DNA from: Alphaproteobacteria bacterium
Lineage (GTDB): Bacteria > Pseudomonadota > Alphaproteobacteria > Micavibrionales > Micavibrionaceae
Length of the DNA: 64,000 nt
Direction of reading: 5' to 3'
Assembly (NCBI GenBank): GCA_021775995.1
Contig: JAJFGS010000013.1
Location: 496,001-560,000, forward strand
Below, piece by piece: positions 3,164 through 34,678 of the stretch. The notes beneath the pieces were generated by a model. It had not been told where the DNA came from and made no database searches. It saw nothing but the letters and a program-made list of their open reading frames with translations. A program made the translations under genes and the position numbers. The stretch's first letter is position 1, and every line of letters begins with the position of its first letter.

Positions 3164-3186
3164 ATTGTTTAATTCCTTTTTAAATT

Positions 3187-3228
3187 AGCCCTCATGCGCG
3201 CATTTTAGTTTTTTGGCGCGAGGAGGCT
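3187..3228. repeat. Short GC palindrome, gene-border family, diverged copy 2
   Basis: AGCCCTC-atGCGCGC ... GGCGCGAGGAGGCT, an inverted repeat with a 12-base AT-rich loop, lies 24 bases upstream of the pnp start. It matches the copy at 13031 in keeping GCGC instead of CCCGC in the stem. Confidence 0.65.
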
Positions 3229-3322
3229 ATGTTTATAAATACCTTTGGACACCATTGCCCATCGGTAGCGGTAAAAAGAGAGTTTTTAAAATTTTGGGAG
3301 GTCGGTAGTTATCCGGTGGACA

Positions 3323-3383
3323 GTTAAGAGGTTCTTTTTAAGGTCGCCATGCCCGTAAACGGGAGGGCGGTGAACCGCTTAAC
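3323..3383. repeat. Nested inverted repeat around gene-border palindrome, copy 3
   Basis: Outer arms GTTAAGaGGTTC (3323-3334) and GAACCgCTTAAC (3372-3383) enclose the gene-border hairpin CGCC-atg-CCCGT-aa-ACGGG-ag-GGCG (3345-3369). The stretch 3164-3511 between pnp and the membrane-protein gene has no coding region; it holds this structure and the palindrome at 3187. Confidence 0.65.
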
Positions 3384-10815: not shown

Positions 10816-10844
10816 GTACCCTCATACGCGCAAGCGCGAGGGGG
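10816..10844. repeat. Short GC palindrome, gene-border family, copy 4
   Basis: TACCCTC-atacGCGC-aa-GCGC-GAGGGGG lies immediately beyond the nusA stop codon, in the nusA-infB gap. The gap (10722-10844) holds no gene. Confidence 0.7.
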
Positions 10845-12445: not shown

Positions 12446-12475
12446 AGCCCTCATGCCCGCAAGCGGGAGGAGGCT
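12446..12475. repeat. Short GC palindrome, gene-border family, copy 5
   Basis: AGCC-CTC-atgCCCGC-aa-GCGGGaGGAGGCT, the best-conserved copy, fills the 57-base rimP-nusA gap just upstream of the nusA ribosome binding region. Confidence 0.75.
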
Positions 12476-13019: not shown

Positions 13020-13030
13020 TATTTTTAAAA

Positions 13031-13071
13031 AGCCCTCAAACGCGCTTATTTAATTATTGGCGCGAGGAGGC
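13031..13071. repeat. Short GC palindrome, gene-border family, diverged copy 6
   Basis: AGCCCTC-aaaCGCGC ... GGCGCGAGGAGGC, inverted arms separated by an AT-rich loop, lies 12 bases upstream of the rimP start. It is most like the copy at 3187, which sits in the same position upstream of pnp. Confidence 0.65.
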
Positions 13072-13105
13072 AGTCTCCATAATTATCCATTTTACCTGAA
13101 GCCAT

Positions 13106-13801: not shown

Positions 13802-14596
13802 TTACTTTTTAGTAAAAAACAGATAATTCATGTGGTCGCTGCCTTTCGCACCCTTGGTTTCGTAGCGGGTAGGAATCCAACTCTCTGGCGTTTTACGCCA
13901 ATCATCAGCCTTTTGAGCTGTCCACTCAAAATCAGGGTGATTAAAGGTCTCAGTCACCATCCATTCAATAAGATTAACCACATCTGTCGTCATGATGAGC
14001 TTCGCACCTGATTTCATGATGCGTGAGAACTCCGTCAGGTTGGCTTGATTGATAATACGGCGTTGATGATGGCGCGTTTTATGCCATGGATCAGGATTAA
14101 GAACATAAATCTCATCAATTGAGTTTGATGTCAAAGATTTAACCAGTGGAATAGCATCATCCATATGGACACGAATATTGTTAAGTTCTAGGTCGTCGCT
14201 TTCATCTATTTCTTTTAGAAAGGCCGTCATGCCATTGATAAAGGGTTCGGCACCAATGAAATTATTTTCAGGATTGCGGCGCATCATTTCGGCCAAATGC
14301 TCACCATTACCAAAACCAATCTCTAGAATAACTTTGTCGTCATTCCCTGAATTGACGCAGTCAATTTTAGGGGAATCTATTTTTGAAGACTCTCCAGATT
14401 GCCCTAGAATCTGCTTTGCAGATTCAGGCAATGACGTAAGAGAGGGGTTTTTAAATAAGGTTGCGGGTGTAAGGCTGCCAGATTTATCTAAATCAGCAAT
14501 TGATAGAGTAGGGAGCAGATTATCGAGTACATTCTGACGGGTTTTATTGAGCTTACGCCCTGAACGGCGTCCATAAAACCGCCACTCAGTATTCAT
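13802..14596 (-). CDS. trmB: tRNA (guanine46-N7)-methyltransferase with palindromic-element insertion
   Basis: Methylates G46 in the tRNA variable loop using S-adenosylmethionine. Family landmarks: FYGRRSGRKLNKTRQNVLDN near the N-terminus, the SAM-binding EIGFGNGEHLAEMM, and the signature NPDPWHKTRHHQRRIINQ. At 264 residues it is longer than typical bacterial TrmB. The excess is a stretch between ATLFKNP and KVILEIGFG that is encoded by a 99-bp palindromic element (14338-14436). Both flanks remain in the family frame, so the gene is probably functional with an inserted loop. It lies between metK and rimP; AGAGTAGC precedes the start. Confidence 0.94.
   Translation of the reverse strand: MNTEWRFYGRRSGRKLNKTRQNVLDNLLPTLSIADLDKSGSLTPATLFKNPSLTSLPESAKQILGQSGESSKIDSPKIDCVNSGNDDKVILEIGFGNGEHLAEMMRRNPENNFIGAEPFINGMTAFLKEIDESDDLELNNIRVHMDDAIPLVKSLTSNSIDEIYVLNPDPWHKTRHHQRRIINQANLTEFSRIMKSGAKLIMTTDVVNLIEWMVTETFNHPDFEWTAQKADDWRKTPESWIPTRYETKGAKGSDHMNYLFFTKK
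14338..14436. repeat. Palindromic element inserted in trmB coding sequence
   Basis: Ends CGTCATTCCCTGA and TCAGGCAATGACG are inverted copies with one mismatch. Inside are two hairpins: ATTCCC..AATTGAC/GTCAATT..GGGGAAT on the left and ATTGCC..GAATCTGC/GCAGATTC..GGCAAT on the right, the same two-hairpin design as the elements at 6198 and 60041. The span is 99 bp, or 33 codons, with no stop in the trmB frame. Confidence 0.85.
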
Positions 14597-34652: not shown

Positions 34653-34678
34653 AAGCCCTCCCACTTGTGAGCATGGCT
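34653..34678. repeat. Short GC palindrome, gene-border family, copy 8 (diverged)
   Basis: AAGCCCTCCCAC-ttGTGaGcatGGCTT, a decayed reversed copy, lies just before nuoA. No other feature was seen between tRNA-Pro and nuoA. Confidence 0.55.

Follow-up and report, generated by a model that had tools for sequence, protein, structure and literature searches.

A palindromic repeat dimer carried in frame by the trmB gene of a Micavibrio-like alphaproteobacterium

The trmB gene of an alphaproteobacterium near Micavibrio, a relative of predatory bacteria, carries a palindromic element that is very probably a REP dimer, non-autonomous and of the CGTC-tagged type, inserted into the gene and tolerated in frame. 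The gene lies in the window (the whole 64-kb stretch of DNA that was analysed) at 13802..14596 on the minus strand and encodes a tRNA (guanine-46-N7)-methyltransferase of 264 aa. The protein matched TIGR00091 with 119.4 bits, above the curated cut-off of 112.65, and its match to PF02390 was also above the cut-off. trmB is present as a single copy in this genome (one match), and all residues that are invariant in the TrmB alignment were found in the insert-bearing protein. A preliminary description of this DNA had reported a 99-bp palindrome at 14338-14436. This was borne out, with arms at 14338-14378 and 14396-14436 that are 73% complementary.

Alignment with the TrmB proteins of relatives, a check proposed earlier, revealed no orthologue with the same residues. 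The gap opened by the extra residues was in frame and clean, as had been claimed, and only their number had to be corrected, from 33 to 34 (L53-D86). At the DNA level, the insert absent from the trmB genes of relatives covers 102 bp or 34 codons at about 14339..14440 (minus strand) and consists of the 99-bp palindrome plus 3 bp, the exact phase of the join being ambiguous. Element and insert are each divisible by three in length, and the trmB copy of the repeat can be read through in the trmB frame without a stop codon. The flanking sequence is conserved and in frame on both sides, as the protein alignment with relatives and the codon-level comparison showed in accordance with the preliminary description. 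The 34-residue gap was seen in every TrmB aligned, including those of the nearest congeners G005 and G007, which are 81% and 77% identical to the insert-bearing TrmB (226 aligned columns). TrmB was found in 35 of the 38 relatives searched; the matches broke at the insert or started after it, as would be expected if the relatives do not possess it. Among the relatives aligned or searched, the insert is known from one species only. Judged from these sequence comparisons, the REP dimer would have landed in trmB once this lineage had diverged from the nearest congener sampled, a date that is relative to G005 only and that shares the high probability we assign to the explanation as a whole.

The 99-bp element is predicted to fold strongly, both as single-stranded DNA (−23.2 kcal/mol, z −7.3) and as RNA (−38.1 kcal/mol, z −5.7); in either case none of 200 shuffled sequences was as stable. 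Pairing across the arms of the whole palindrome was considered as the conserved structure and rejected, since covariation favours hairpins within each half. The element consists of two 42-nt hairpins in inverted orientation, each of the form [C/T]GTCAT..CCTGAATT-loop-AATTCTAGGG..ATCYA, with the tags outside. Half-unit 1 (CGTCATTCCCTGAATT..AATTTTAGGGGAATCTA) is located at 14338..14379 on the plus strand and matched the half-unit covariance model R2 with 59.4 bits (E 6e-11). Half-unit 2 (CGTCATTGCCTGAATC..GATTCTAGGGCAATCTG) is located at 14395..14436 on the minus strand and matched with 60.6 bits (E 3.2e-11). The interval between the two matches leaves a spacer of 15 bp at 14380..14394. One half ends in CTA and the other in CTG, and the trmB copy is still close to the repeat consensus.

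Searching the genome with the element recovered diverged copies with E-values down to 6.8e-17. With the half-unit model, about 17 places in the same genome were found to hold 33 half-units, mostly as inverted dimers and sometimes singly. A locus with a single half-unit is L073. The occurrence of the repeat elsewhere in the same genome places the trmB palindrome far beyond chance. Among 16 loci checked in this genome, trmB was the only ORF of at least 90 aa that encloses the element. The element model found no further copy in the 64-kb window, so that any other in-gene insertion there would not be of this family. The repeat was detected in 3 of 10 genomes of the genus and in 27 of 104 from the family. 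A sample of 385 genomes from the whole class was searched with stricter filters, by which weaker families could be missed, and only the genome of the window itself was positive. Two repeat copies (L004, G000:C3:40092, and L005, C5:748057) share common flanking sequence, with an extra half-unit beside the second, which suggests that a block was duplicated and that there were not two separate insertions.

For a detailed characterization of the unit, 119 distinct half-units from this genome and its relatives were aligned. The half-unit consensus reads [C/T]GTCAT-(T/C)(C/G)CC-TGAATT-variable tip-AATTCTA-GGG(G/C)(A/G)AT-CYA, and its stem comprises 15 consensus pairs, which an asymmetric bulge divides into two blocks, with a loop of variable length. 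Standard pairs occupied 96.4% of the stem cells and two-sided changes were counted in 280 cells compared with 90 in shuffles, absolute figures that lean towards structure because the alignment had been fitted to the covariance model. In slid-partner controls the covariation signal was destroyed and far lower. Furthermore, RNAalifold recovered these hairpins from a plain MAFFT alignment, in which 10 pairs were compensated. The hairpin tip is variable yet complementary through compensatory changes. The first two stem pairs are AU in 110 and UA in 118 of the 119 units, and most units end in an unpaired 3-nt tail, CCA or CTA. Dimers with the tags outside (HH) are the predominant arrangement, and 44 of the 47 dimers listed start with CGTC or TGTC, the exceptions having CATC or GGTC. 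All 47 dimers, which were taken from fetched loci and do not form an unbiased sample, are heterodimers, the two halves being different at two positions in the tag-proximal part of the stem (mean of 35 and maximum of 44 heterodimers in 2,000 shuffles). A search of Rfam with the element gave no match at E 1.

CGTC REPs have been described as four families that are mainly alphaproteobacterial and mostly intergenic, and CGTC-1 has been reported in Micavibrio aeruginosavorus (PMC3733652). The present repeat resembles them in its CGTC or TGTC tag, the AT first stem pairs, the YYA tail, the inverted dimers with tags outside, and its mostly intergenic and sometimes in-frame location without a linked transposase (PMC3733652). 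In contrast to their stem of 8-9 bp and loop of 4-5 nt, it has 15 pairs with an asymmetric bulge and a loop of variable length; a variable tip with compensatory changes and the heterodimeric state of all 47 dimers examined also set it apart. Compared by description, the repeat works like a CGTC REP and is likely an undescribed variant rather than a proven member of one of the four families. Its inverted doublets of short hairpins and lack of target duplication also recall REPINs and the GTAG REPs mobilized by RAYTs, from which it differs by its CGTC/TGTC tag and by a Y1 gene that is not flanked by the repeat. CGTC and GTAG REPs have been found in frame in many genes, including those for tRNA pseudouridine synthases, and Rickettsia conorii has been reported to carry a Rickettsia palindromic element in its gene for tRNA pseudouridine synthase B (PMC3733652). 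Since in-frame REPs, also in tRNA-modification genes, have thus been published, the trmB case is less surprising. It adds another tRNA-modification gene to those hit, and the site is cleanly empty in close relatives. In-frame insertion of palindromes, for which the best-known hosts are obligate intracellular Rickettsia, is thereby extended to a Micavibrio-like lineage of alphaproteobacteria.

The resemblance to Rickettsia palindromic elements (RPE-1, RPE-4 and RPE-6), which are likewise in-frame palindromes inside protein genes, raises the question of whether the trmB element is a true element of this kind gained by transfer from Rickettsiales. The biology is the same, the class is the same, and RPE-6 and RPE-4 of R. 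conorii have been equated with CGTC-1 and CGTC-4 REPs (PMC3733652). However, the host lineage is different and nearly all copies here are outside genes, a comparison made by description and not by sequence. Stem and loop are unlike the described CGTC units, and the distribution across the host's own family, with no other genome positive in the more strictly filtered class sample, also speaks against a transfer. We regard such a transfer as extremely improbable. An origin as a MITE that stems from an insertion sequence and is moved by a DDE transposase would fit the terminal inverted repeats and the size near 100 bp. It is nevertheless very improbable in view of the single half-units, the ability of each half to form a hairpin by itself, and the target sites, where no duplication was found at the dimers (mean of 1.74 compared with 1.83 in shuffled data). 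It is also rather unlikely, although to a lesser degree, that the repeat represents an undescribed, family-specific kind of REP in which templated or selected paired changes maintain tip complementarity of the long hairpins, heterodimers are obligate, and in-frame peptides are repeatedly seeded as new protein linkers, in trmB here and in membrane-anchored and predicted secreted proteins among relatives.

The genome contains one Y1 transposase gene, an IS200-like gene at L036 1180-1863 (G000:C11:39799) with a sub-threshold match to REP_Tyr_transpos. No repeat was found within about 1.5 kb of this gene, Y1_Tnp being the transposase family tested, and Y1 transposases are present across the genus, including in congeners without the repeat. 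A Y1_Tnp/RAYT enzyme was therefore rejected as a linked mover. No literature on REPIN/RAYT systems in Alphaproteobacteria was found, and the survey of CGTC REPs did not find a dedicated transposase either (PMC3733652). A host enzyme of the IS200/IS605 type that acts in trans on single-stranded hairpins is a plausible, if tentative, candidate for the mover. The strict heterodimer pairing and the strong compensatory change should be useful for addressing how REPs with no known transposase spread and persist.

To locate the insert in the protein, TrmB was modelled by AlphaFold2 with 36 aligned sequences. Most of the core was modelled with a pLDDT of 91-98, and the best structural match of the model was TrmB of Escherichia coli (TM 0.85 by target). 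Block means of the pLDDT dropped to 54-68 for residues 51-90, a stretch that follows the N-terminal helices and leads into the strand formed by residues 89-93. In the model the insert thus forms a loop of low confidence that connects these helices with the first Rossmann strand. This position fits the linker site proposed in the preliminary description, and the 34 residues are probably floppy. The trmB branch length was 0.14 compared with 0.15 in the sister G005, indicating no acceleration. Pairwise dN/dS was about 0.07, a value that mostly predates the insertion and is rough because dS is near saturation. Judged from fold, site and branch length, the insert probably is a tolerated neutral linker, although a loop modelled at low confidence is no proof of harmlessness. 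The reading of the palindrome as an in-frame insertion has thus gained support from empty-site orthologues, a dispersed repeat family and the structure model.

An insert of this size that folds strongly within a coding region, in a family that keeps nearly all other copies outside genes, might instead have inactivated TrmB or be doing so now, the open frame being a transient relic. The single-copy gene has an intact ORF and retains its invariant residues, its branch is not accelerated and the core fold is confident, all of which makes such decay very unlikely. Conversely, the 34 residues may have been recruited for a function such as binding of tRNA or a partner, so that the element would be domesticated. 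Possible in-frame copies in a membrane-anchored protein (G008) and in predicted secreted proteins (G083, G094) could be taken in favour of this idea. On the other hand, the insert is of low confidence in the model and confined to one species, and its close match to the repeat consensus means that there is no sign of adaptation at the protein level; we consider domestication highly unlikely. Under the preferred explanation, a tolerated in-frame REP dimer, the insertion would have survived because it kept the frame and struck a tolerant loop, where the N-terminal helices give way to the first Rossmann strand. In this case TrmB would keep working and the inserted residues would be mostly neutral. 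Of 16 further copies that were inspected, about half have no stop-free frame at all. That the insertion survived in trmB thus required a suitable copy, phase and site.

Possible in-frame copies of the repeat were also seen in other genomes. In the congener G008 (L179, G008:C27:34503-34598), the repeat is located near the start of an apparently membrane-anchored protein of 295 aa, in the same frame, and in G083 and G094 it is located at the start of the predicted secreted proteins. In all three cases downstream starts could exclude the insert, which leaves trmB as the clearest in-frame case. The repeat is also near the start of a 1163-aa ORF in G107 (L177), which was set aside because a downstream start may exclude it, and short ORFs of 117-209 aa with no recognized domain (L180, L182-L185), in which copies seemed to be in frame, were not taken to be real proteins. 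The in-frame search profile was built from one frame, and a frame preference can therefore not be claimed.

Additionally, the window contains other repeats. Another short hairpin repeat, CATGCCCGCAAGCGGGAG with its variants, gave five matches compared with 0.02 expected, at 951-968, 3348-3365, 10823-10840 and 12452-12469 on the plus strand and at 34658-34675 on the minus strand, two of them just outside nusA/rimP. A pair of 64-nt repeats at 3178-3241 and 13022-13085 is 73% identical and has CCTC-like ends and a GCGC hairpin.
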